Of a stretch of DNA of 64,000 bases, positions 4,103 to 37,388 are shown piece by piece. Positions within the stretch are counted from its first letter, which is position 1; every line of letters begins with the position of its first letter. This DNA comes from Massilia atriviolacea (GTDB lineage Bacteria > Pseudomonadota > Gammaproteobacteria > Burkholderiales > Burkholderiaceae_D). The notes under the pieces were generated by a model that ran no database searches, was not told where the DNA came from, and saw only the letters and a program-made list of their open reading frames with translations. The stretch covers positions 160,121 through 224,120 of the forward strand of contig NZ_RXLQ01000001.1 of the NCBI RefSeq assembly GCF_003953935.1. The letters run 5' to 3'. A program made the position numbers and the translations under genes.

Positions 4103-5356
4103 GTGTCTAGCAAGAATCAACAACAAATAGCGGTGCTGGCGAGCAGTACTTTCGCCTTCACCATCTGCTTCGCCATCTGGATGATGTTCGCGGTACTGGG
4201 CATCCCCATCAAGGCGCAGCTGGGCCTGAACGAGACCGAATTCGGCCTGCTGGCGGCAACGCCGGTGCTGAGCGGCTCGCTGGTACGGGTGCCGCTCGGC
4301 ATCTGGACCGACCGCTACGGCGGACGCATCGTGTTTTTCATCCTCATGCTCACCACCGCGCTGCCGATCTGGCTGATCGCGTACGCCACCCAATTCTGGC
4401 ACTTCCTCGTGCTCGGCCTGTTCGTCGGCCTGGCCGGCGGGTCGTTCTCGGTCGGCACGCCCTACGTGGCGCGCTGGTTCGGCAAGGAACGGCGCGGGCT
4501 GGCGATGGGCATCTTCGGCGCCGGTAATTCGGGCTCGGCGCTGACCAAGTTCGTGGCCCCGGCCATTATCGCCGCCTTCGGCTGGCAAATGCTGCCCAAG
4601 GTGTACGCGGTGGCCATGCTGGTCACGGCCGTCGGATTCTGGCTGTGTTCGTTCAGCGATCCCACCCACAATGTGCCGGCCGGCGTGTCCTTCGTCGACC
4701 AGATGAAGGTGCTGAAAGACCCGCGCGTGTGGCGCTACTGCCAGTATTACTCGGTGGTGTTCGGCGGCTATGTGGGCCTGGCCCTGTGGATGACCAAGTA
4801 TTACGTCACCGAATACGGTTTCGACATGCGCCTCGCCGCGCTGCTGGCGGCCTGCTTCTCCTTGCCCGGCGGCGTGCTGCGTGCCCTGGGCGGCTGGATC
4901 TCGGACAAATACGGCGCCTACAAGGTCACCTGGTGGGTAATGTGGGTGTGCTGGGTGTGCTTCTTCCTGCTGTCGTATCCGCAGACCAGCATGGTCATCA
5001 AGACCGTGACCGGCAGCGCCACCGTCGACATCGGCGTGACGCCCGTGATGTTCACCGTGCTGCTGTTCGTGGTCGGCGTCGCCATGGCGGTCGGCAAGGC
5101 CTCGGTGTTCAAGTTCATCGGCGACGACTTTTCCGACAACATCGGCGCCGTCTCGGGCGTGGTGGGCCTGGCCGGCGGCCTGGGCGGCTTCGTGCTGCCG
5201 ATCCTGTTCGGCGCGCTGGTCGACCTGACGGGCGTGCGCTCCTCCACCTTCATGCTGCTCTACGGCACGGTGTGCGTGTCGCTGGTGTGGATGCATTACA
5301 GCTTCAAAGACAGCGCGCGGCCCGCCGCGCCGGCCCGTCTGGCCGTGGTCGCCTAA
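4103..5356 (+). CDS. narK1: NarK1-type nitrate transporter (major facilitator family)
   Basis: This is an inner-membrane nitrate porter of the MFS nitrate/nitrite family, 417 residues with about 12 hydrophobic helices. The length and the lack of a long loop fit the NarK1 type, usually regarded as proton-coupled nitrate uptake. Family marks include RVPLGIWTDRYGG (the MFS loop after helix 2), the first nitrate signature GGSFSVGTPYVARWFG and the second in GLAGGLGGFVLP. It starts at a GTG preceded by GGGAGA; no better ATG is near. It is followed after 18 bp by narK2, and the pair probably forms one transcript driven from the FNR box at 3942. Confidence 0.9.
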   Translation: MSSKNQQQIAVLASSTFAFTICFAIWMMFAVLGIPIKAQLGLNETEFGLLAATPVLSGSLVRVPLGIWTDRYGGRIVFFILMLTTALPIWLIAYATQFWHFLVLGLFVGLAGGSFSVGTPYVARWFGKERRGLAMGIFGAGNSGSALTKFVAPAIIAAFGWQMLPKVYAVAMLVTAVGFWLCSFSDPTHNVPAGVSFVDQMKVLKDPRVWRYCQYYSVVFGGYVGLALWMTKYYVTEYGFDMRLAALLAACFSLPGGVLRALGGWISDKYGAYKVTWWVMWVCWVCFFLLSYPQTSMVIKTVTGSATVDIGVTPVMFTVLLFVVGVAMAVGKASVFKFIGDDFSDNIGAVSGVVGLAGGLGGFVLPILFGALVDLTGVRSSTFMLLYGTVCVSLVWMHYSFKDSARPAAPARLAVVA

Positions 5357-5374
5357 TTCAAAGGAGAATCTACT

Positions 5375-6760
5375 ATGAGTAAATATGTCATCGCCACATG
5401 GGAGCCGGAACTGCCGGCCTTCTGGCAAAGCAGCGGCAAGTCGACCGCCAACCGCAACCTGTGGATCTCGATTCCGGCGCTGCTGTTCGCTTTTGCGGTG
5501 TGGATGGTATGGAGCGTGGTCGTGGTCAACCTGCCGAATATCGGCTTCAAGTACAGCACCAACCAGCTGTTCTGGCTGACGGCGCTGCCGGGCCTGTCCG
5601 GCGCCACCTTGCGCATCTTCTATTCCTTCATGGTGCCGATTTTCGGCGGGCGCAAGTGGACCACGATTTCCACCGCCTCGCTGCTGATTCCGGCCATCGG
5701 CATCGGTTTCGCGGTGCAGGACGTAAACACCAGCTACCCGGTCATGCTGATCCTGGCCCTGCTGTGCGGCTTTGGCGGCGGCAATTTTGCCTCGTCGATG
5801 GCGAACATCAGCTTTTTCTATCCCAAGGCGCAGAAGGGTTACGCGCTCGGCATGAATGCCGGTCTCGGCAACCTGGGCGTGTCGGCGGTGCAGTTCGTGG
5901 TGCCGCTGGTGATCACCGCCGGCGTGTTCGGTGCCTTCGGCGGCGAGGCCCAGCAGTGGGTCAAGGGCGGCGAGTCGAAAGCCATGTGGCTGCAGAACGC
6001 GGGCTTCATCTGGGTGCCCTTCATCGCCCTGACGGCGCTGGCATCGTGGTTCGGCATGAACGACCTGGCCTCGGCCAAGGCCTCGTTCTCGGAGCAGGCC
6101 GTGATCTTCAAGCGCAAGCATAACTGGCTGATGTGCTGGCTGTACACGGGTACTTTCGGTTCCTTCATCGGTTACTCGGCCGGCTTTCCGCTGCTGATCA
6201 AGACCCAGTTTCCTGATGTGAATCCGCTCGACTACGCCTTCCTCGGCCCCCTGGTCGGCGCGCTGGCGCGGGTGGTGGGCGGCATCGTGGCGGACAAGCT
6301 GGGCGGCGCGCGCGTGACCCTGTGGACCTTCGTGCTGATGATCGCGGCGGTGTACGGCGTCATTCACTTCCTGCCGCATGGCGGCGTGGCCGGCAACTTC
6401 ACCGGCTTCTTCTGGATGTTCATGCTGCTGTTCGCCGGTACCGGCGTGGGCAATGCCTCGACCTTCCGCATGATTCCGGTGATCTTCCTGACCGAACGCC
6501 AGCGTGCCGCCGAAGGCAAGGGCCATGCGGCCAAGGAACAGGCGATCGTCGACGCCAACAAGGAAGGCGCGGCGGTGCTCGGCTTTACCTCGGCGGTGGC
6601 GGCCTACGGCGCGTTCTTCATTCCCAAGTGCTACGGCACCTCGATCGCCATGACCGGCGGTCCCGACGCGGCGCTGTGGAGCTTCATTGGCTTCTACGTG
6701 TCGTGCATCCTGGTGACGTGGTGGTACTACGCGCGCCGCAACGCCGACATGCCTTGCTGA
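5375..6760 (+). CDS. narK2: NarK2-type nitrate/nitrite transporter (major facilitator family)
   Basis: This is the second MFS porter, 461 residues, close to E. coli NarK in length. Members of this subtype mostly exchange nitrate for nitrite. The first nitrate signature is seen in GFGGGNFASSMANISFFYP and an equivalent glycine-rich segment recurs in the second half. The longer loop after helix 6 and the hydrophilic loop with ERQRAAEGKGHAAKEQ separate it from NarK1. The ATG at 5375 has AAGGAGA upstream. It sits 18 bp after narK1 and 13 bp before the regulator gene. In P. aeruginosa and Burkholderia narK1K2 lead directly into narGHJI; here narG is 11.8 kb away. Confidence 0.9.
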   Translation: MSKYVIATWEPELPAFWQSSGKSTANRNLWISIPALLFAFAVWMVWSVVVVNLPNIGFKYSTNQLFWLTALPGLSGATLRIFYSFMVPIFGGRKWTTISTASLLIPAIGIGFAVQDVNTSYPVMLILALLCGFGGGNFASSMANISFFYPKAQKGYALGMNAGLGNLGVSAVQFVVPLVITAGVFGAFGGEAQQWVKGGESKAMWLQNAGFIWVPFIALTALASWFGMNDLASAKASFSEQAVIFKRKHNWLMCWLYTGTFGSFIGYSAGFPLLIKTQFPDVNPLDYAFLGPLVGALARVVGGIVADKLGGARVTLWTFVLMIAAVYGVIHFLPHGGVAGNFTGFFWMFMLLFAGTGVGNASTFRMIPVIFLTERQRAAEGKGHAAKEQAIVDANKEGAAVLGFTSAVAAYGAFFIPKCYGTSIAMTGGPDAALWSFIGFYVSCILVTWWYYARRNADMPC

Positions 6761-26749: not shown

Positions 26750-26982
26750 GGATCGCTTTTCTGAAAATGGAGATAGGTGGACTATACAACGCGCACGGCC
26801 AAGCGTCGAATCCGTGTCAAGTCGGCCTCCTTGCTTCCCCCGATCCGCCGTTAACACGGCGCCGGGTCTGGAACGGCGCACATCGTTCGCCCAGTTGCGC
26901 GATGCAGTGGATTTGTTACTTTTGGTGACTTTTCAGTGCATTTTATAGCTTACTCTGATGCATTAAATGGTGCCTGGAGAGC

Positions 26983-29355
26983 ATGTTGGACGAGCGACAA
27001 TTAGCAATGGACGATCTGTTGCGCGAGTTGGATTTTGCGGCAAGGACGATGGGGATTTCTCCTGCGGAACTGAAATCGCTGCTGCTCGCTATTTCCGGGT
27101 GCATGTGTCTGGCCGCAAGCGAGCGCTCGGACATCATTTTCCCGGCTCTGCAGGAAGAGCTCGGTAACATGTTCAGAGTAGGTGGGGACAGCGAACGCAG
27201 TCTGTCTTATGCGCAAGTGCTTGGCACCCTGCGCGACCAGTTGCAATGTGAGAATCGAGATAATCCGTTTTCTTATCCCGACACGACGTTTGAGCAAGCG
27301 CTAGAGTTTGCGCGAGGTGGTTTCATCCGGCAATTGACGCCTAGCTATTTCTTCGAGCTGCTTTATGAAACCCATTGTGAGGACGAGTACGGTGCGGGCG
27401 CGCCCAAGAGCCACCTGGCGTCGCGCCTTGCCGCGGAACTGGGTGCCTCCTCCGATTCTATCTGGGAATATTCGCTGTATACCGGCGACTTGCCAGTCAG
27501 GTTAAAGCGCCTTGGCCATCCGCTAAGCGCAGTACGCTGCAGCATGCTTCCCGAGGATGATTTTTTCGTCCGGCTGCGATTGGCGATCCATGGCATCACG
27601 GTCGATACGGGCGGTGACGCAAGGGGGCTCGCCGAACTGTTATTGATTAACGTGCCGTTCACCGGAAATCATCCCGTCGACGCCGGAGACGCTACCGGTG
27701 TCCTGGACCAAATCTTTGCCAGGCAGGAAACGTTCGAACTTGCCATCGTTGCCGTACGTGCAGCGGAACTGACAAGTACAGGTATCGCCGAAACGGTACG
27801 CCAGCACATCGTCCACCATCGTTTTCTGCACGCCGTCGTCGACCTGGGATCGCTTCGGCCGGGAAAACCAAGAGGTCCGGCCACGTCCTTGCTGGTGCTG
27901 GGCGGCAGAACCCCGCTGCCGATGCCTGAGGTCCTTTTTATTAACGCGGCAAGGCTTCTCGAGGAAGACGCGGAGAACGCCGGCCAGTACGCCATGGTAT
28001 TCGTCGGTAGCCTGATTCGCCTGTGGGGCGAGGGCGAGGACGTCTCCTTTCACTCCGCCCCGGTGCGCGATCTTGGGCACTTGCGGGGGTATTTCTCGCG
28101 TCACTTCAGCAACGGTTATCGCGACGTGGCCTCACTGTGCAAATTGGTGCCGCGCACCGACATCGAGCGCGCTCAATGGTCGCTGGCGAGGGGACGATAT
28201 CAGGGCAAAGCCAAGGCGGGAGACATTCAATTCCCCAAAATAGACAGTCTGCACCTGGAGGAGTTGCTGGAAGGTCGGATGCGGCACGCACAGCCACGGC
28301 CGGTCTTCGTTATCGGAAATAACGGCGCGGGAAAAAGTGCTCTGTTGTTGCAGCTAGCCAAAACGATGTCCGGCAAAGGGATGCACACCACCGGCATCGC
28401 GTTTGGCCACCGTGACCGTTTTCCGTTTGCCAGGACGAGAGATATGTCGCGCTTCAAGTATCTGGGGGCGCGTACGACCGAGACCAGCATTACCGGTGCT
28501 AAAACGGCCGAGCAAATCGTCCGGCTGACAAAAATCGTCCAAACCGATCAGGTGCGACTCGACATCTTCCGGCAAATTCTGGAAGCGATCGGATTTCAGT
28601 GCGAGCTGTTCATCCTGCCGAAAGACGCCTCGGTGTTAAATGATGGACTACGCGCCAATCACAGGAGCTCGATCCTCGCCTTGACCCCTATTGCTGAGGT
28701 GAACGCTGAGCTGTACAGCAAGGTATCGCTTTCTAAAACGAGCCTTGGGTTTAAACGGAGCAACGCTACTTACAAAGTCATTGAAATTAACACCTTGAGT
28801 TCAGGCGAGCAACAGTTACTTACACTCGCGATTAAACTGTGCGCCGTCGCCATTGACGGCATGCTGTTTTTGGTCGACGAGCCGGAAAACAGCCTGCACG
28901 TCGCGTGGCAGCGTGCCATTCCGCGCATGTTTGAGATCGTCAGCACCCAATTCGGATGTGGCATTGCCGTCGCAACCCATTCACCAGTCGTTATCTCCAG
29001 CGCGCTTGAAGCGGGCCTTGACTGTTTTTCCGCCCATGAATGGGCCTTGACGAAAATTGAACACGGTAGCCAGCAATCCGTGGACGCCGTGCTGTTCGAT
29101 AACTTCGAGACGTATACGCCGCATACGCGCAGGGTGGCGGAGCGCTGCGCCTATCTCGTCGCCGACACGATCAGGCGCGTCAATGGCGTGCGGGGCGACG
29201 ATGCGGACGAGAGCGCAGCAGTGGATGCGATCGCGCGCGCAAGGGCGATCGTGAAAGCGTCCGCCGACGCTTTGCCCGATAGCCTGGCAAACGGCGACCT
29301 GGACCTGCTGGAGCGCGCCCGCAAGGCAATCGTAGAGCTGCTGGGCAGGAACTGA
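26983..29355 (+). CDS. Septu-like ATPase (PtuA-type) fused to a degenerate HsdM-like N-terminal region
   Basis: The 790-residue protein has two parts. Residues about 440-700 are an ABC/RecF-type ATPase: Walker A GNNGAGKS (445-452), signature LSSGEQQ (604-610), Walker B LFLVDEPENS (627-636) and a switch histidine in ATHSP (663-667). This is the PtuA class. Residues 1-330 look like a worn-out type I restriction N6-adenine methyltransferase (HsdM): LTPSYFFELLY (118-128), RLRLAIHG (198-204), LLINVPFTG (220-228) where HsdM has the N-P-P-F motif, then FLHAVVDL and VLFINAARLL. The SAM-binding glycine motif is not recognisable, so methylation is unlikely. The next gene, 10 bp on, is an HNH nuclease. 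Base composition is visibly less GC-rich than in the neighbours, which suggests transfer. A later ATG at 27007 is possible. Confidence 0.78.
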   Translation: MLDERQLAMDDLLRELDFAARTMGISPAELKSLLLAISGCMCLAASERSDIIFPALQEELGNMFRVGGDSERSLSYAQVLGTLRDQLQCENRDNPFSYPDTTFEQALEFARGGFIRQLTPSYFFELLYETHCEDEYGAGAPKSHLASRLAAELGASSDSIWEYSLYTGDLPVRLKRLGHPLSAVRCSMLPEDDFFVRLRLAIHGITVDTGGDARGLAELLLINVPFTGNHPVDAGDATGVLDQIFARQETFELAIVAVRAAELTSTGIAETVRQHIVHHRFLHAVVDLGSLRPGKPRGPATSLLVLGGRTPLPMPEVLFINAARLLEEDAENAGQYAMVFVGSLIRLWGEGEDVSFHSAPVRDLGHLRGYFSRHFSNGYRDVASLCKLVPRTDIERAQWSLARGRYQGKAKAGDIQFPKIDSLHLEELLEGRMRHAQPRPVFVIGNNGAGKSALLLQLAKTMSGKGMHTTGIAFGHRDRFPFARTRDMSRFKYLGARTTETSITGAKTAEQIVRLTKIVQTDQVRLDIFRQILEAIGFQCELFILPKDASVLNDGLRANHRSSILALTPIAEVNAELYSKVSLSKTSLGFKRSNATYKVIEINTLSSGEQQLLTLAIKLCAVAIDGMLFLVDEPENSLHVAWQRAIPRMFEIVSTQFGCGIAVATHSPVVISSALEAGLDCFSAHEWALTKIEHGSQQSVDAVLFDNFETYTPHTRRVAERCAYLVADTIRRVNGVRGDDADESAAVDAIARARAIVKASADALPDSLANGDLDLLERARKAIVELLGRN

Positions 29356-29365
29356 GAAGGCAACG

Positions 29366-30127
29366 ATGCGTACCCTGATTACCCGCGCGGAAATGCGCGA
29401 ACAATTCAAGTCCTATTGCGACCAGGTCCACAGGACGAAAAAACACCGCGCCGCCACGCTCGGTGTCATTGCGGCATATTGGCGTACTTCCCGTCGCGAG
29501 CGGCTCGACGGCTGGGGGCCGCTGTCGAAACATAATGCGGAAAAGGACAAGGCCAAGGATCCGGTCAATGCCCAGAACATCAAAACGGCACTGCGCGACT
29601 TCCTGACCGTACAGCAGTTGGAGCGCTGCTGTTACTGCCGGCAGTGGCTGTTCCGTATGGCGCATGCGAAGCCGATCGAACATGTGCTTCCGAAAAAAGA
29701 TTATCCGCACTTTTCCCTGCACTTCTGGAATCTCGCAGTGGCCTGTGCCGATTGTAATCGGCTGAAGGGGGCCGACGTGTGGGGATCGATTCCGCTGCGG
29801 CGCTTCGCCTATCCGCATCCGGGGGAATACCCCGACATGTTTCACCCGCGCTTCCACAATTATGCCGACCATGTCGATTTCGTCCACATCGCGACGAACC
29901 ATGGAAGTATTTCGATCTATAAGGGCTTGACGCCCCAGGGACGCCACCTCTGTACGGCACTGTTGCACAAGGTCGCCAAAGAACGCATGCTGCTCGACGC
30001 CGCGCCCGGACTCAATTCGGCGATCAGTACCATCGAATCCTTCCGTACTCAGCACGACGGCAAGCATCCAGAATTGCTGGATTTCATGGCTGCGCTCGAC
30101 AACGCACTCCTGAGTACGGTCGCTTAG
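29366..30127 (+). CDS. HNH endonuclease, PtuB-like partner of the ATPase
   Basis: A 253-residue protein with an HNH nuclease centre at residues 88-131: a CCYC knuckle (Cys88 and Cys91), PIEHVLPK with His106 as the general base, FWNLAVACADCN with Asn122 and a second zinc pair at Cys127/Cys130. This is the layout of PtuB and retron-associated HNH proteins. The start at 29366 has AGAAGG and is 10 bp after the ATPase stop, so both should be made from one message. In Septu the ATPase restrains or directs the nuclease to cleave nucleic acid in infected cells; that role is inferred from the family. Confidence 0.85.
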   Translation: MRTLITRAEMREQFKSYCDQVHRTKKHRAATLGVIAAYWRTSRRERLDGWGPLSKHNAEKDKAKDPVNAQNIKTALRDFLTVQQLERCCYCRQWLFRMAHAKPIEHVLPKKDYPHFSLHFWNLAVACADCNRLKGADVWGSIPLRRFAYPHPGEYPDMFHPRFHNYADHVDFVHIATNHGSISIYKGLTPQGRHLCTALLHKVAKERMLLDAAPGLNSAISTIESFRTQHDGKHPELLDFMAALDNALLSTVA

Positions 30128-30212
30128 ATGGCGCGAGGCCCGACGCAAGGCCACATCGAGTGCGCGTCGATGATGGCTGCGCCCAGGTCGACGTCGATCA
30201 GCTGCCGCTTCG

Positions 30213-33200
30213 TCAACCGCGCAGGCTGTCGATATCGCGCACCATTTCGCTGGCATGCACCGGATCGAGCGTGGAAAACGGCTCGGCTTGCTCGATCTGT
30301 CCCCATTTGCCGGCGCGCCCGGTGAGCAGTTCGCCCAGGGTCTGGCGCGGATGTTCCTCGCTCATGCCGACCTGGAGACCGGGCGTGAAATACAGTTCGA
30401 TCAGGCGTCCGCGCCCCAGTTCCCTGGACAGGTAGGTGATCATGCCGCCGTCCCCCGCATCGCCGCGCCGCCATCCCTTGCCGGCCAGGCCGCGCAGGCG
30501 CGCGCTGTCCACGGTGACGCCGTCCCAGCGCTTGAGCGCGGACGCCGCCAGTTCCTGCGCGCCGATGGCATGGGTGTCGCGCCCCAGTTGCCGAAATGGC
30601 TGGACCACTTCGTAATCGGCCAGCAGCTGCGCGAACGCGGTCGCGGTGTCGGGCGCCATGTCGAGCGCATGCGGAATGCCGATCACCACGTCCGCCGGCA
30701 GGTCGAACGGGTCGTCGGCGCCGTCCGTGAAGCCGCCCTCGGACGAGATGCGGAAGCAGGCCAGCAGCTCGCCGCCATGGGTGGCGTCGGCCGCCGGGCG
30801 ATACGCGCCCCACACGATGCGCCGCGCCAGGTGCCCGAGCAGGGGATGGCGCGCCAGGAAGGTGTCGAACACCCCGGGCGTCCAGCGCCGCTGTGCGCAC
30901 ATCGCCGTCTCCAGGCGCAGCACCTGCTGCGAGGCGATGGTGCGCGCATCTTTCTTGAGTATCTTGAAGCGCTCCACGGCGGCCGCCGCCAGCGCCGCAT
31001 CGTCGCTCTGGCGCGGCTTGGGCAGGTCCGGCAGGCGCGCGCCATCCTGGTCCAGCACATACGGCTTGAGCGCTTCGTCGAAGCCGGCGCGGAAGCGGCG
31101 CGGGCCGAAATCGAGGTCGATGCCGCCTTGCGCGTCCAGCCCCAGGTCCGGCGCCAGGCGGTCCGCGAGTTCCTCGGGACTCATCTCGCGCGCCTGGGCG
31201 ACTTGCTGGATCTTTTCGCGCGCCCGGTCCTGCAGGGCCTTGAACTTGATCTTTTGCGCGATCCCGTTGAGCAGCATGAGCGCGGTGTCGCTGCCGATGG
31301 TGGCCAGCACATCGAGGCCGGTGACGGCGCGCGTATGCTGGCCTTCGCCCGGCCAGGCGCGGATGAAGCGGGTCAGTTCGCGCGCGGTGTTGTCGTTGCC
31401 GAGCAGGCCGAGGCCGGCCATGACCCAGCCTTCCTTCGAGGGTGCGCCGGCGGCGATCCAGGCGTTGAAGGCATCCCACATGAAGTTGGCGAGCGACTGC
31501 GCTTCGCAGGCCTCGCGTGCCTGGGCGATGCCCGGATATACCCCTTCCGAACTGGGAAAACGCAGCATGGCGCCGAGGTGATCGAGCGCCGCGTCGGGCA
31601 GCGCCTTGCCGTTGCTGGCCAGGACAGGCCGGGTCCAGGTGGCAGGCTTCCAGAACTCGGGCGCGGCGCCGACTTTTTTCGGATGCAGGTCGAGCGGGTC
31701 TTCGTCCAACATGGCGCGCATGGCGGCGTTGACGTCGGCGCGCCCGTAGCGCGCGGCGACCTCCATCAACTGGGCTTCATGGCCCTGGCGCGCCAGCATG
31801 CGCAGGGCGGCGCCGGCGCAGTCGCGCGCTTCGCCGGCTTTGCCCAGCGCCGGCGCGATCAGGCCGCAGGCGGCGTATTCCGGATGCGCCAGCAGCCACG
31901 CCTGCGCGGCGGCGCGCGAGGTTTTCATCTTCAGGTAGGCGCGCGCGATCGGCGCGGCCATCTCCACCGCCGCCACATGGGCGGCGCAGTCGATCACCTC
32001 GTTGGGGCGCTGGCGCAGCGCGGCGACCAGTCCGGGCAGGGCGGCCAGGCCGAAGTGGGCCAGCGCGAGATTGGCGCCGTAGCCGTCTTCGCCGCCCAGC
32101 GTATTCCAGATCGCCAGTCCCAGCGGCTCCGGCAACTGCAGCAGGTACAGTGAACTGAGGTAGTTGTAGCGGTGCGCGCCGCTGTTGGCATAGTCGCTCC
32201 AGCTGGCGCAGAAGGCGGCCGCGTCGCCCGCACGAATGGCCTGCTCCGCGCGCGCCGCGAAGCCGGCGGTGTCGACACCCTTCGAACTGCGCCCGTCGAT
32301 GCCCAGATTGCGTACCACGACATCCGGCGCGCTCGACTGGCGCAGGCTGCGCTGGACCCAGTCGCTGTCGAGCAGCGCCGCGCGCTCCGAGGCCTCCCAG
32401 GTGTCGCGCACCGGCAGCGCCAGCGGTGCCAGGTCGAGCGCGGCCACCGTCTTCTTGCGCGGCGCCAGCCAGGGGGGATTGGACAGTACGCGCGGCAGCT
32501 CGGCGCTGTCGGCCAGCGCGGGCGCGGCCGCGAGTTTGCCTGCGATCTGTGCCACGGCCGCCTGGGCCGATGCCGACATCCACGGCGTCAGGGACGGCAG
32601 CGCGGCCAGGTGCGCCGGCAGCAGCGTGGCCAGGCTGGAGGCAAAGCGGCCGGCATCCTTGCCGCTGCCGGCGGCCAGTTCCGCGAGCGCCGCGATGGCG
32701 GCCAGCGGCCAGCGCCCCATGGCGGCCTGGAAGCGCTGCAGCGCGGCCTTGTTGATGCTCGACGCGCGGGCCAGCGCGGTGAGCGCCTCAGGCGTGCCGA
32801 TATGCAGGAAATAGTCGCTGACATCGTCGTAGCCGAGGACCGGCATCAGGATCTCCAGCGCGCGTGCTCCGAACGAGCGCACCAGGGTCGGCGCGACCCA
32901 CGGCGTGAGCAGGAAGGCCAGCAGGTCGTCGTGGTGGGGCGCGAGTTGCGCCAGCGCGGACAGGGCGGCCTCGCTGCGCACGCTGCAGTACAGCGCGAGC
33001 GCGCTCGAGGGGCCGTCGGCGTGGCCCAGTTCCCGCGCCATCGTCTCGGAAAAGTCCGGCAGGTCGGGCAGGATCAGTCCCAGCAAGGGGCGGCGCCATG
33101 GCGACAGTTCGGGCGCCGCCGCCTCGATGCGGGCGGCGCAGCGGTCCCAGACAGCCTGCGGCGCGAGCGCGAGATGGTCGCGAAAGCGCACTTCGGCAGG

Positions 33201-34019
33201 GCTGTAGCCGCGCTGGTTCACCCCCAGCGGGCGCTCGATGGCGGCATGCACGATGATGCGGTAGTCGCGGATCGGATCGTGCCATTCGTTCGCGGTTCCC
33301 AGACGCTGGGCGTCGAGCAGGACGTCCAGCGCATACGGCAGCCCTTTGGCGGCGACCAGGAAGTCGGTAAAGGAACTGGCTTCTTCGTCGCTGAAGCGTG
33401 CGCTGCGGCCGGCGGCAACGGCCATCAGGATCGCGTCGGATGCCGGCGAGCCGTCGGCGTTGGCGGTCGCCAGCCGCTGGTTGGCTTCGTCGACGGCCGC
33501 TGCCAGGTGCGGCGCCGAGGCATCGGCGATGACGCTGCCGTAGCGCTCGCGGCCGTGCACGAAGTCGGCCCAGCTCTCGGCCGCCGCTTTGGCATCGATC
33601 GGGCGCGGTGCGGCGCGGGTCGGCAGTGCCTGCGCCGCCAGTTCGGCGGGGATCGCGACCGGATCGCCCGGCGCCAGCCATGGCGCCACGCCCGGCGCCT
33701 GTGGCTGCGCGGCTGGGGCTGGGGCAGGGGCAGGGGCAGGCGTGGTCGCAGCGCGGACCGGGGCGGCGGGCCTGGCGGCTGGCGGCGCGCTGGCCGCTGC
33801 CGCAACAGGGGCTGCTGCGGTTTCGGTGTAGCCCTTGCCGGTTTTTTCCCTGATCAGTTTGAGCATCGCGGCGTGCGCGCTGGCGGCGTCGCTGTGTTTC
33901 TTGCTCTGCGATTGGCCGTGCGCGCCGATTTTTCCGTAGCGGACGTTGACGGTGTCTCCCACCTGGTCGACTTCCCAGAATTTGCGGGAGCTGCCATCGT
34001 CATATTCGAACCGTTGCAT
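30213..34019 (-). CDS. WGR and DUF4132 domain protein (MolR-like)
   Basis: A 1268-residue cytoplasmic protein. Residues 1-65 are a WGR domain (FEYDDGSSRKFWEVDQVG, then VRYGKIGAHGQ), a fold that in PARP enzymes binds nucleic acid. A Pro/Ala-rich linker runs from about 70 to 110. A long helical HEAT-like region follows, and the part from about residue 960 is DUF4132, with DLDFGPRRFRAGFDEALKPYV and later RIVWGAYRP. Proteins of this build include E. coli YehI/MolR, whose genes lie near a MoxR ATPase and a VWA protein, like those at 11061-13381 here. Its function is unknown. It is 79 bp downstream of the truncated Rhs gene on the same strand and convergent with the HNH gene. Confidence 0.85.
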   Translation of the reverse strand: MQRFEYDDGSSRKFWEVDQVGDTVNVRYGKIGAHGQSQSKKHSDAASAHAAMLKLIREKTGKGYTETAAAPVAAAASAPPAARPAAPVRAATTPAPAPAPAPAAQPQAPGVAPWLAPGDPVAIPAELAAQALPTRAAPRPIDAKAAAESWADFVHGRERYGSVIADASAPHLAAAVDEANQRLATANADGSPASDAILMAVAAGRSARFSDEEASSFTDFLVAAKGLPYALDVLLDAQRLGTANEWHDPIRDYRIIVHAAIERPLGVNQRGYSPAEVRFRDHLALAPQAVWDRCAARIEAAAPELSPWRRPLLGLILPDLPDFSETMARELGHADGPSSALALYCSVRSEAALSALAQLAPHHDDLLAFLLTPWVAPTLVRSFGARALEILMPVLGYDDVSDYFLHIGTPEALTALARASSINKAALQRFQAAMGRWPLAAIAALAELAAGSGKDAGRFASSLATLLPAHLAALPSLTPWMSASAQAAVAQIAGKLAAAPALADSAELPRVLSNPPWLAPRKKTVAALDLAPLALPVRDTWEASERAALLDSDWVQRSLRQSSAPDVVVRNLGIDGRSSKGVDTAGFAARAEQAIRAGDAAAFCASWSDYANSGAHRYNYLSSLYLLQLPEPLGLAIWNTLGGEDGYGANLALAHFGLAALPGLVAALRQRPNEVIDCAAHVAAVEMAAPIARAYLKMKTSRAAAQAWLLAHPEYAACGLIAPALGKAGEARDCAGAALRMLARQGHEAQLMEVAARYGRADVNAAMRAMLDEDPLDLHPKKVGAAPEFWKPATWTRPVLASNGKALPDAALDHLGAMLRFPSSEGVYPGIAQAREACEAQSLANFMWDAFNAWIAAGAPSKEGWVMAGLGLLGNDNTARELTRFIRAWPGEGQHTRAVTGLDVLATIGSDTALMLLNGIAQKIKFKALQDRAREKIQQVAQAREMSPEELADRLAPDLGLDAQGGIDLDFGPRRFRAGFDEALKPYVLDQDGARLPDLPKPRQSDDAALAAAAVERFKILKKDARTIASQQVLRLETAMCAQRRWTPGVFDTFLARHPLLGHLARRIVWGAYRPAADATHGGELLACFRISSEGGFTDGADDPFDLPADVVIGIPHALDMAPDTATAFAQLLADYEVVQPFRQLGRDTHAIGAQELAASALKRWDGVTVDSARLRGLAGKGWRRGDAGDGGMITYLSRELGRGRLIELYFTPGLQVGMSEEHPRQTLGELLTGRAGKWGQIEQAEPFSTLDPVHASEMVRDIDSLRG

Positions 34020-34098
34020 GTCGCTGTTTCCTTGTAGGGAAGGTGCTCATGCGGCCAGCGCCTGCATGGCACGTGTTGCTGAAAAAATTTTTCCGATG

Positions 34099-36516
34099 TT
34101 AAAAGGGCGGGCGCAGCGTGTATGCGGGATCGAACGCGAAGCGCTCATCCGGCGGCGGCTGCAGCGCCGACAGCATGCGCCCGATCAGGTCTTCGCGGCC
34201 CTGGCGCTTGCCGTCGATGGCTTGCAGGTTGCCGTTCCCGTCATACGCGACCTTGCGCGCCGCCGGCGGCGCTGCGCCTTGCGCGGCGACGATCTGGCCC
34301 GCGACCTGCGACAGCACGCGCCCGATCGGATCGTAATGGAACTGGCCGCACTCGCCGTCGAGCTCGATCTGGTGCGGATGCCCGCAGCCGTCCGACAGCC
34401 TGTCGAGCACGCGCCCGTCCGGCAGCACGGTCTGGATGCAGTTGCCCAGCTGGTCGTACGCATGGCGCACGACCCTGATTTCCCCGCCGCTCTCGGTGCG
34501 CTCGACCAAAAGCTGCCCCAGCGCGTCGTATTCCAGCGACACGATCGCATCGGCATGGATGGCCTGCGTCACGCGGCCCAGGTCGTCGTAGCTGAAGCGC
34601 CGGCGCGACTGCTCCGTGCCGGACGAAATGAAGGTGTCCACCACCTGGCCGGCGCTGTTGCGCACATAGGTGGTCTCGATGCGGGCCGCGCCGCCGAGTT
34701 CTTCCTTTGCCGCCAGCCAGCCGGACTCGTCGTAGCGATAGCGCGTCTGGCGCCCGTCGACGCCGGCGTCTTCGATCAGGCGGTCGAGCGCATCGTAGGC
34801 GAAGCGCTGCACGCCGCCATGCTCGTCGATCAACTCGCTAAGGCGGCGCACGGCGTCGTAGCGGTATTCCAGCACGCCGCCGCGCGCGTCGATGCGCCTG
34901 AGCGGCTTGCCATCGACATCGCGCTCGTAGCTCACGCGCTTGTCGGCAGCGTCCGTGAACGCCAGCAGGCGCCCCAGCGCGTCGTACTCGTAGCGCTCGG
35001 CGGCGCCGTCCGGCCGGACCAGCGCCGTCAGGCGGCCCGCCGCATCGTAGCTGAAGGAGCTCGCGCGGCCGCGCGCATCGCTCACGCGCAGCAGCCTGCC
35101 GTCGACGTCGTAGCTGAAACCGGTGCTGTTGTCCGCGCAGTCGGTGACGCTGGTCACTTGCGCCGCGCGGTTGTAGGCCAGGGTCCTGACGCCGCCGGAT
35201 GCGTCGGTCGCCTTTACCGGCGAGCCGTGCGCGTCGTACTCGTAGGCCGTGCGGTTGCCGAGCGCGTCGGTCACGCTGAGCAGATTGCCGCGCTCGTCGT
35301 AGCGCCGCGCCGTGGTGGCGCCGAGCGCATCGGTGATCAGGGCCGGCTTGTCGAGCCTGGCGTCGTACACGATCCCCGTGCCCTTGCCGTTGCATTCGGA
35401 GCGCATCAGCCGGCTGCGGCGGTCGTAGCGGTAGGTGGTGTTGTGTCCGCCCGGCGCGGTAACGCCGAGCACATGACCGTGGTTGTCGAGGCGGCGCACC
35501 GTCTCGCCGCCGAGCGCGTCGAGCATGCTGGTGAAGCGGCGTTTTTTGTCGAAGCGGAACAGCTCTTCGCGGCCAATGTTGTCGTAGACCAGGGTTTCGC
35601 CGTTCAGGTAGCGGAAATTCCACGACCTGCCGTCGTTGGTCCAGTTGCGCGTGACCTTGCCGGTCCATTCGTATTCGTCGTACTCGTAGCGCGAGACCAG
35701 GCCGCCAGGCTGCGCGTGCTCGATCATGATGTGGTTCATGTAGGCGAACTGGCGCGTCACCTCGCCGGCGCGGTTGAGCACCCGGAACAGGTTGCCCAGC
35801 TCGTCGTATTCGTAGCGCATGACTACTTCATTGACCGGCTCCTCGTAGTCGACCGCCTCGCGCTGCACGCTGATGCTGCCCAGTCGCAGCTGTCCGCGAT
35901 GAGAGATGTAGTCCAGCACGAACACGCGTCCGGCGCTGTCTTCGACGCTCTCGGGCAACTGGCGGGCGTTCCAGGCGATGCCGATCTTGTTGTCGTTGGC
36001 GTCGATCAGCGCGACGAGCACGGCGCTGTCATACGCGCGCGGCAACATGGCGAACAGCTTGCGCAGGCCGTTCTCGTCGATCAGTTCGAAACTGCGCTCG
36101 CCGGTGCGTTCCAGCGTGATTTTTTCCGACAGCGAATACAGGGCATCGCCCACGCGCGGCAGCGCGAACGTCATGTCACGCTGGAAGGCGTCGAGGATGA
36201 CCACCTGGCCGTCGCTGACATACAGCGCCTCCGACAGCGGCGTGCTCCAGCCCTGGCCCAGCAGGCCGCTCCTGCGCTGCGCGGAACTGTACAGGCGTTG
36301 CCAGGCCAGGGGCAGGGCGGCGGGCAGGGCGAAGTCGAGCTCGCTGACGCCGGCGAGGATCTTGCTGCCGGAAATCGGATTGACGGGATTGGCTCTCAGC
36401 AATCGCAGCGGACAAGGCGCCGTGCCATCGCCTGTGAGCCGTGCCTGGCCGCGCCGCATGGTGCGCAGTGCACTGTTGAAGTTAGCCGAGCTGTCTTGAT
36501 CGAGAATAGTTGTCAT
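34099..36516 (-). CDS. Rhs-family YD-repeat protein lacking the C-terminal core and toxin
   Basis: The 805-residue protein starts with a DUF6531-like entry (NPVNPISGSKILAGVSELDF) and then has about twenty YD repeats such as RYEYDELGNLFRVL and RYDERGNLLSVTDALGN. It has no signal peptide or PAAR domain. Full Rhs proteins run to 1400 or more residues and close with the DPxGx core and a variable toxin tip. Here the frame stops after FAFDPAYTLRPPF, before any core motif or toxin, so the shell is incomplete. This could be a decayed 3' end or a naturally short form. A SUKH immunity-like gene is divergent from it, as would fit a former toxin locus. A long opposite frame is a shadow. Confidence 0.82.
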   Translation of the reverse strand: MTTILDQDSSANFNSALRTMRRGQARLTGDGTAPCPLRLLRANPVNPISGSKILAGVSELDFALPAALPLAWQRLYSSAQRRSGLLGQGWSTPLSEALYVSDGQVVILDAFQRDMTFALPRVGDALYSLSEKITLERTGERSFELIDENGLRKLFAMLPRAYDSAVLVALIDANDNKIGIAWNARQLPESVEDSAGRVFVLDYISHRGQLRLGSISVQREAVDYEEPVNEVVMRYEYDELGNLFRVLNRAGEVTRQFAYMNHIMIEHAQPGGLVSRYEYDEYEWTGKVTRNWTNDGRSWNFRYLNGETLVYDNIGREELFRFDKKRRFTSMLDALGGETVRRLDNHGHVLGVTAPGGHNTTYRYDRRSRLMRSECNGKGTGIVYDARLDKPALITDALGATTARRYDERGNLLSVTDALGNRTAYEYDAHGSPVKATDASGGVRTLAYNRAAQVTSVTDCADNSTGFSYDVDGRLLRVSDARGRASSFSYDAAGRLTALVRPDGAAERYEYDALGRLLAFTDAADKRVSYERDVDGKPLRRIDARGGVLEYRYDAVRRLSELIDEHGGVQRFAYDALDRLIEDAGVDGRQTRYRYDESGWLAAKEELGGAARIETTYVRNSAGQVVDTFISSGTEQSRRRFSYDDLGRVTQAIHADAIVSLEYDALGQLLVERTESGGEIRVVRHAYDQLGNCIQTVLPDGRVLDRLSDGCGHPHQIELDGECGQFHYDPIGRVLSQVAGQIVAAQGAAPPAARKVAYDGNGNLQAIDGKRQGREDLIGRMLSALQPPPDERFAFDPAYTLRPPF

Positions 36517-36725
36517 TCAGGAAATGCTTTGGCTCGTGATAGTCGATGTGCGCGAAAAAGTCCGATCGGACAAATGTGTTTGTGACAGTATACACACTTT
36601 CCAAAACGATAATCTTCCTTTTCTTGCATTGGGCCCATCAAGGCGTGCGACGATGGCGGGCTTGCGGACAGCGAGGCGATCTGTCGTCATCCCGCCACTG
36701 GCGGCCACCATGTGAAGGGATTGAC

Positions 36726-37388
36726 GTGAGCCTGTTGCGTAGACTGCTTGACCTGCTGACACCATATGTCGACGATGCCGCTCCGGTCGCCGAATCGGCG
36801 ATCCGGCAATTCGCCGACGGGCACGGGATCGTCCTGCGCGACGATCATGTGCAATGCCTGACGAGGTTTGGCGGCGGGAAGCAAGGACGGCTGCGGATCT
36901 TCAGGTGGTATGAGGGCGATTTTGATTTTGAATTGCTGAAAAGCGTTTACCTGGACGGCCATCCCGATATGGCATTACCGGCCGGGACGTCTTACTTTGG
37001 ATCGAGCCTGACCGGCGACGCTTTTTGCCTGGACCTGAACTCGGGAAAGATCTTCGCCTATGACGAAGGAATTAAATACGGCAAGGTGCACGAATCGATC
37101 GATGGTTTCCTGTTCCGCTGCCTGGTGTCGGTCTACGCTGAACAGGCCTTTGCCGGCAAGGCCGTCGAGCGCGGCCTGGCGCCGGAATCGCTTGCTGCGT
37201 TCCGTTCGGCGCATGCGCAGCACAGAATGGACGAGGCAAGCTGCTTCATGGTGCGCTATGACGACAATGGCAGCCCGGCCATCCTGGCCGAGTACTACTT
37301 CATCGACCGCCAGCTGATCGCGCTGTATCCGGACTCGAACAGCCGGGTCACGCACAGCGGCGGGGTGTTGGGCGCACTTCCGTCGTAG
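36726..37388 (+). CDS. SMI1/KNR4 (SUKH)-type immunity-like protein
   Basis: A 220-residue soluble protein. The pattern fits SUKH-fold proteins, which neutralise toxins of Rhs and contact-dependent systems: an N-terminal helix, FRWYEGDFDFELLKSVY, then PAGTSYFGSSLTGDAFCLDL, then GKIFAYDEG and a helix with IDGFLFRCL. I chose the GTG at 36726, with GAAGGGA just before it; the frame is open further upstream but without a good start. It is divergent from the truncated Rhs gene, with a 12-bp palindrome GTCCGATCGGAC at 36560 between them. The matching toxin is not present. Confidence 0.65.
   Translation: MSLLRRLLDLLTPYVDDAAPVAESAIRQFADGHGIVLRDDHVQCLTRFGGGKQGRLRIFRWYEGDFDFELLKSVYLDGHPDMALPAGTSYFGSSLTGDAFCLDLNSGKIFAYDEGIKYGKVHESIDGFLFRCLVSVYAEQAFAGKAVERGLAPESLAAFRSAHAQHRMDEASCFMVRYDDNGSPAILAEYYFIDRQLIALYPDSNSRVTHSGGVLGALPS

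Follow-up and report, generated by a model that had tools for sequence, protein, structure and literature searches.

The 64,000-nucleotide stretch of Massilia atriviolacea DNA analysed here (assembly GCF_003953935.1, contig NZ_RXLQ01000001.1, positions 160,121 to 224,120; hereafter the window) carries two adjacent forward-strand genes, gene A (26983..29355, 790 residues) and gene B (29366..30127, 253 residues), with 10 bases between the stop of the former and the start of the latter. Open reading frames (ORFs), sequence motifs, and PADLOC assignments agree with the first-pass annotation in pointing to a Septu-like pair, in which an ATPase with PtuA-type motifs is followed by a PtuB-type HNH nuclease. 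On the evidence of its ORF, PADLOC, and the predicted fold, gene A encodes a fusion in which the ATPase is preceded by a degenerate relative of HsdM, the methyltransferase subunit of type I restriction systems (pseudo-HsdM::PtuA). All features described below for the two genes lie on the forward strand.

The pseudo-HsdM domain occupies residues 1-412 (26983..28218), where a helical part (residues ~4-153) is followed by a Rossmann-type sheet (~160-390). A degenerate HsdM-type region had been proposed in the first-pass annotation, and profiles and fold bear this out, but its extent is ~412 rather than 330 residues. Gene A alone stays below the cut-off for Pfam N6_Mtase (E value 0.059), so that the claim of HsdM ancestry rests on profiles and fold. 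PADLOC MTase_I matches residues 371-414 (E value 2.4e-7). Whole-genome searches with the N-terminal part returned, besides the window, frames of mostly ~490-600 residues (range 237-931), and 26 HsdM sequences for a profile were drawn from the HsdM-like frames among them. When this profile was aligned by hhalign with the N-terminal part of gene A plus one relative, a score of 97.8% was obtained (E value 6.6e-13), and the N-termini of 20 members of the family described below gave 99.0% (E value 7.1e-18, 284 columns). The family profile, ranked against all PDB sequences, placed EcoR124II HsdM first (1.1e-7) and 3khk second (2e-7), both of which are HsdM chains; N6_Mtase was matched by 13 of the 20 family N-termini at E ≤1 (best 1e-5), and the 26-HsdM profile recovered the fusion frames of 10 of 19 relatives at E 1e-3. 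The fold predicted for the domain is that of an HsdM-type Rossmann methyltransferase, the likeness spanning ~350 residues, and on this point, too, the first-pass reading stands. Profile alignments, the PDB-wide ranking, and the fold comparison rule out a chance resemblance, and the N-terminal domain is, by these profiles and this model, derived from HsdM.

The resemblance is uneven along the domain. Preservation is highest in the HsdM tail (residues 375-412, 28105..28218, GYRDVASLCK...WSLARGRYQG), which is also the part found by PADLOC MTase_I; the window agrees with the HsdM consensus there at 17 of 38 residues, compared with only 3-11 in each of the seven other stretches compared (28-75 columns each). 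The segment LTPSYFFELLY (residues 118-128), earlier read as an HsdM motif, was probably misplaced, as the profile alignment puts FYTPTSIVRLIVEIL of HsdM on residues ~139-153. The site of the S-adenosylmethionine (SAM) motif I, residues 158-172 (27454..27498), is degenerate, reading DSIWEYSLYTGDLPV compared with RIxDPACGSGGMFV in HsdM, and so is that of the catalytic motif IV, residues 218-228 (27634..27666), with ELLLINVPFTG compared with FDFVxANPPFN; the window's INVPF falls on NPPF of HsdM in the profile alignment. Loss of the SAM motif and the change of NPPF to NVPF had been noted from the window sequence, and both observations extend to the family: in a full-length alignment of 19 members, which omits the decayed copy L125, neither DPACGSGG nor CGSGG occurs (0/19), and NPP[FYW] is likewise absent from every N-terminal part (0/19), the nearest being NPPV in L114. 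At the position of RIxDPACGSGGMF (IWEYSLYTGDL in the window), an acidic residue is found in 19/19 and a TG or SG pair in 17/19 members, and the SAM-loop glycine G168 is retained in 17/19. Among 47 HsdM-like loci used for comparison, some of which represent the same gene twice, 35 carry both DPACGSGG and NPPF, 6 carry NPPF alone, and 6 carry neither. Judged by these motifs, the N-terminal domain is a pseudo-enzyme that has lost its active site, and we infer that it can no longer bind SAM.

The remainder of the pair retains its putative catalytic apparatus. The PtuA-type ABC ATPase domain (residues 425-790, 28255..29352) contains the Walker A motif GNNGAGKS (445-452, 28315..28338; G-x-N-G-x-G-K-[ST] in 19/19 aligned members), the ABC signature LSSGEQQ (605-611, 28795..28815; LSSGEQ in 19/19), the Walker B motif LFLVDEPE (628-635, with LVDEP at 630-634, 28864..28887; DEPE in 19/19), and the H-loop ATHSP (664-668, 28972..28986; ATH in 19/19). 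PADLOC assigns this C-terminal half to PtuA (best E value 4.3e-33) and gene B to PtuB (2.4e-25); in Pfam, gene A matches AAA_21 (3.1e-14), and the HNH match of gene B is sub-threshold (0.0014). The best PDB sequence match of gene A is AriA of the PARIS system (5.9e-8, or 2.3e-17 with the family profile), several PtuA proteins ranking lower. In gene B, the HNH core CCYC...EH...N...CADCN..K (residues 88-136, 29627..29773) was delimited by alignment with 16 relatives, and C88, C91, E105, H106, N122, C127, C130, N131, and K134 are invariant in 17/17 sequences. With ATPase and HNH motifs intact, genes A and B make up what is, at the level of sequence, a Septu-like pair. Gene decay of the window copy is ruled out by the open ORFs, these intact motifs, and the selection seen in relatives (see below).

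The fusion also occurs elsewhere. Patterns derived from three ATPases were used to scan 84,980 genomes; they limit the members that can be detected, and the family may be larger. Among the best 80 of 167 confirmed loci, which were examined, 19 are further fusions (E values 5e-86 to 8e-47), and the remainder lie at 8e-18 or weaker. The fusions come from Pseudomonas (12), Zoogloea (2), Paraburkholderia (2), Aromatoleum (1), Gallionella (1), and Pantoea (1). Their Walker A motif starts at residue 421-503 in 18 cases and at 217 in the short, decayed L125. Of the other 61 matches, 55 have it at residue 18-89, and a simple pattern found none in the remaining 6. These distributions mark the fusion as a discrete architecture, sharply apart from ordinary PtuA and not a one-off. 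Its association with an HNH gene, on which the first-pass annotation had let its proposal depend, recurs throughout, as a PtuB-like gene follows in 17/17 loci with enough sequence; L110 and L111, which end 128 and 214 bases past gene A, were excluded from this count, and L126 was included here but kept out of the HNH alignment since its start is unclear. The two genes overlap by 4 bases in 13/15 measured relatives. Besides, a decayed and unannotated fusion copy was found in Paraburkholderia caribensis (NZ_CP012748.1, L016:3764-5210), where an N-terminal part 61.5% identical to that of Zoogloea L110 and an ATPase piece with 84% identity stand in separate frames, with ~190 residues absent between them; a phage-integrase-family gene lies ~2 kb from this copy. 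L125 has nothing that matches residues 1-207 of its relative L123, and its frame ends early.

When 399 genomes of the order and 200 of the phylum were searched with the family profile (the window's genome being counted in both sets, and up to 4 or 8 candidates being scored per genome), family strength was reached only by the window's own protein (E value 1e-104), the other matches being frames of 210-1443 residues with 3e-15 at best. Whole-genome searches with one or two sequences are weaker negatives because the family N-termini are only 13-23% identical to that of the window. The full-length gene A protein found nothing useful in viral_contigs or genome_contigs, nor did queries A1, A5, and A6 in viral_contigs, where query A4 gave 54 loci, all of them with a match beginning at residue 411 or later (54/54) and none in the pseudo-HsdM proper. 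Phage matches (6 records) were confined to residues 442 onward. On plasmids, none of the 36 records found with the full protein covered 80% of it, and the 6 records found with residues 1-425 comprise the P. caribensis copy, 4 annotated methyltransferases, and 1 unannotated sequence.

The ATPase tree (38 domains) places the fusions on one side of a branch with support values of 88/94, present in 86% of 200 bootstrap trees; these values do not reach what the tool itself rates as strong, and several plain PtuA sequences are long-branched. The window copy stands alone on its branch, its ATPase domain being at most 39% identical to any other. The ratio of nonsynonymous to synonymous substitution rates (dN/dS) was estimated for 8 pairs of related copies, which share members and are not independent, and which do not include the window copy as it is too distant. 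It amounts to 0.14-0.43 in the pseudo-HsdM domain and 0.09-0.25 in the ATPase domain, the former being higher in 8/8 pairs. By this measure the pseudo-HsdM domain is under purifying selection in the relatives.

As for the setting in the window, the pair is preceded by a SUFU-domain gene on the other strand and a PpiC gene, and followed by a gene for a WGR-DUF4132 protein and then by an Rhs gene. The GC contents of genes A and B are 57.6% and 57.5%, compared with a 1-kb mean of 65.6% (standard deviation 3.7), and those at third codon positions (GC3) are 0.67 and 0.70, compared with 0.79-0.88 in five neighbour genes. The interval between the SUFU and Rhs genes (26816-34112) is a variable site: DNA comparison with eight stretches from the same genus, six of which have SUFU and Rhs, left the pair unmatched in 8/8, and the two flanks are only ~125 bases apart in G013, the other five holding different DNA there. 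The low GC content and the variable site beside the Rhs gene fit an arrival of the pair by transfer, which we consider probable, as the first-pass annotation did from base composition. The WGR-DUF4132 gene (1268 residues, 30213-34019, reverse strand), convergent with gene B, likewise finds no match at the DNA level in the SUFU-Rhs interval of the six syntenic relatives, and its GC3 of 0.87 is unlike that of the pair. The Rhs protein (805 residues, 34099-37388) adjoins a divergent gene whose matches to SUKH models fall slightly short of the cut-offs, and the two are perhaps a polymorphic toxin and its immunity gene.

Type I restriction genes were also considered around the relatives and in the host. 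They lie near the fusion pair in at least 3 of 17 loci (L114, L119, and L122), as judged from 77 of 135 ORFs scanned and a tally of the 25 commonest families, by which single HsdR or HsdS genes may be missed. In L114 (713-3841), an HsdR gene lies directly upstream on the same strand, with 65 bases separating its end from the fusion gene, and the HsdR gene and the pseudo-HsdM::PtuA-PtuB pair possibly form one operon. HsdM lies upstream of the fusion in L119 and L122, the only two of the 19 loci in whose ORFs the HsdM profile found a true HsdM; the neighbour tally also holds HsdS and HsdR, whose assignment to particular ORFs follows from their position. These two Pseudomonas loci (L119:1-6629 and L122:1-6407) carry close pairs, the halves of A being 84% and 96% identical, with right-hand ORFs similar in length and upstream HsdM genes of different types (profile E values 4.8e-24 and 2.5e-105). 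In L119, the pair is separated from the type I genes by a 363-residue ORF (4619-5707), which has a weak match to the NucS C-terminal domain just below cut-off (E value 1e-4). Downstream of the pair in L126, a Gabija-like pair was recognised by eye and in the neighbour tally. Such neighbours fit defence islands, from which dependence on restriction does not follow. A single N6_Mtase match and a single, marginal one to HSDR_N were obtained in the host genome; HsdS gave none there at E 1e-3, in a search that was positive in 9 of 14 control genomes.

To the best of our knowledge, how Septu systems sense phages is unsettled apart from the retron-linked type. The PtuAB of retron Eco7 is reported to deplete tRNA-Tyr and to be neutralised by reverse transcriptase and multicopy single-stranded DNA (msDNA) (PMC11555353), an E. 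coli Septu to cleave tRNA-Tyr (PMC13096335), and Septu type II to include a reverse transcriptase (PMC8565338); the PtuAB of retron Eco4 spares tRNAs, and another Septu is reported as a DNA cutter (PMC11555353, PMC13096335). The presence of the fusion in 19 other genomes suggests that the pseudo-HsdM is probably a retained working part, which may sense virus. We think it rather probable, going by sequence and predicted structure, that genes A and B constitute a stand-alone defence module of the Septu type, with a sensor carried on the ATPase itself; the pseudo-HsdM is the likely sensor and can fairly be inferred to gate the nuclease. The products of genes A and B would form a resting PtuA-PtuB complex, in which the pseudo-HsdM would be a regulatory domain seated on the ATPase, performing in cis the job that reverse transcriptase and msDNA do in trans in retron-linked (type II) Septu. 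An infection signal meeting the pseudo-HsdM would lead to an ATP-driven rearrangement that frees or activates the HNH nuclease, which would then cut nucleic acid (DNA or tRNA, as for different PtuAB) and stop the phage, probably at a cost to the cell. Given that the domain keeps its fold and the C-terminal HsdM segment but has lost the SAM loop and NPPF, we consider a protein partner a likelier signal than DNA or SAM. The faster change of the pseudo-HsdM relative to the ATPase is as would be expected for a faster-evolving sensor. Against this proposal, it can be said that a faster-evolving domain can simply be less constrained, and that the full model has a predicted template modelling score (pTM) of 0.59, which makes the packing of the two halves of gene A unsure. 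A removable domain of known ancestry on the ATPase, kept across several deep lineages, renders the question of sensing testable.

Plants have immune receptors with integrated decoys, and by analogy the pseudo-HsdM might mimic the target of phage anti-restriction proteins such as Ocr and ArdA, whose binding would trigger PtuA-PtuB. We regard this as unlikely. Ocr and ArdA act mostly as DNA mimics, binding in a groove to which HsdS contributes, and HsdS is unmatched in the host genome; in addition, the N-terminal domain is not basic, its net charge being -5.1 on average and -14 in the window copy (HsdM mean -17.1). The idea draws on the analogy with PARIS, in which AriA recognises Ocr (PMC11455837). 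In such an arrangement, a dead restriction subunit would be wired to a Septu nuclease, and a phage that disarms restriction would trigger a second, abortive defence; if true, this would be a counterpart of the plant integrated-decoy receptors and a new sensing principle for Septu, and bacterial immune receptors, like those of plants, would incorporate copies of what pathogens target.

A structural role, in which the domain serves PtuA assembly or PtuB docking without sensing, agrees with the conservation of the fold rather than of the catalytic site. Ordinary PtuA-PtuB pairs work without a pseudo-HsdM, however, and the fast change relative to the ATPase better fits an outward-facing role, so we deem this quite unlikely. 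Still less probable is a guard function, by which the pseudo-HsdM would dock in a resident HsdM-HsdS-HsdR complex and release the nuclease when the complex is disturbed, as PrrC does: the type I genes close to the pair and the preservation of the C-terminal HsdM segment speak for it, but true HsdM accompanies the fusion in so few loci, and the host has no HsdS match and a single, marginal HSDR_N match. Reading of DNA methylation or SAM state by the domain, as the first-pass annotation had suggested, could appeal to HsdM ancestry and the kept glycine G168, yet we judge it highly improbable, as motif I and NPPF are lost in 19/19 members and HsdS, on which HsdM relies for its DNA target, is unmatched in the host. 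Overall, the earlier observation is confirmed and its interpretation partly supported.

Several known systems share parts of this architecture with the proposed sensor-bearing Septu module. PARIS (AriA-AriB) has a related ABC-type ATPase, AriA being the best PDB sequence match, and a two-gene layout, but the partner here is an HNH protein rather than the TOPRIM protein AriB, and we know of no HsdM domain in AriA. MADS MAD3 and the restriction-associated AAA ATPase TIGR04435 are methylation- or restriction-linked ATPases that match the ATPase part weakly (E values 4e-8 and 6e-8; 32.8 and 31.9 bits compared with cut-offs of 420 and 300), and the methylase genes of these systems are separate. With type I HsdM, the domain shares the whole-domain fold, profile homology, and the GYxDVxGLC...Y tail, but the SAM and NPPF motifs are lost, an ATPase is fused, and neither HsdS nor HsdR is encoded in the window's pair. 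In Septu type II (retron I-A; Eco7, Eco4), control is exerted by reverse transcriptase and msDNA in trans, whereas the domain here is fused in cis; a reverse transcriptase gene is absent directly upstream of the pair, and the scores lie far below the NCBIfam cut-offs for PtuA and PtuB of retron Ec78 (NF041760, 22.7 of 500 bits; NF041761, 34.3 of 150 bits). No description of a PtuA-HsdM fusion was found in the openly licensed literature, judged mainly by titles and abstract openings, and by this limited search a Septu variant with an HsdM-derived pseudo-enzyme appears undescribed. The closest likeness is to Septu (PtuA-PtuB) itself, with a PtuA-type ATPase whose Walker A, signature, and Walker B motifs are intact and an adjacent PtuB-type HNH protein with an intact core; in contrast to type I Septu, with its early Walker A motif, ~400 pseudo-HsdM residues precede the ATPase here.

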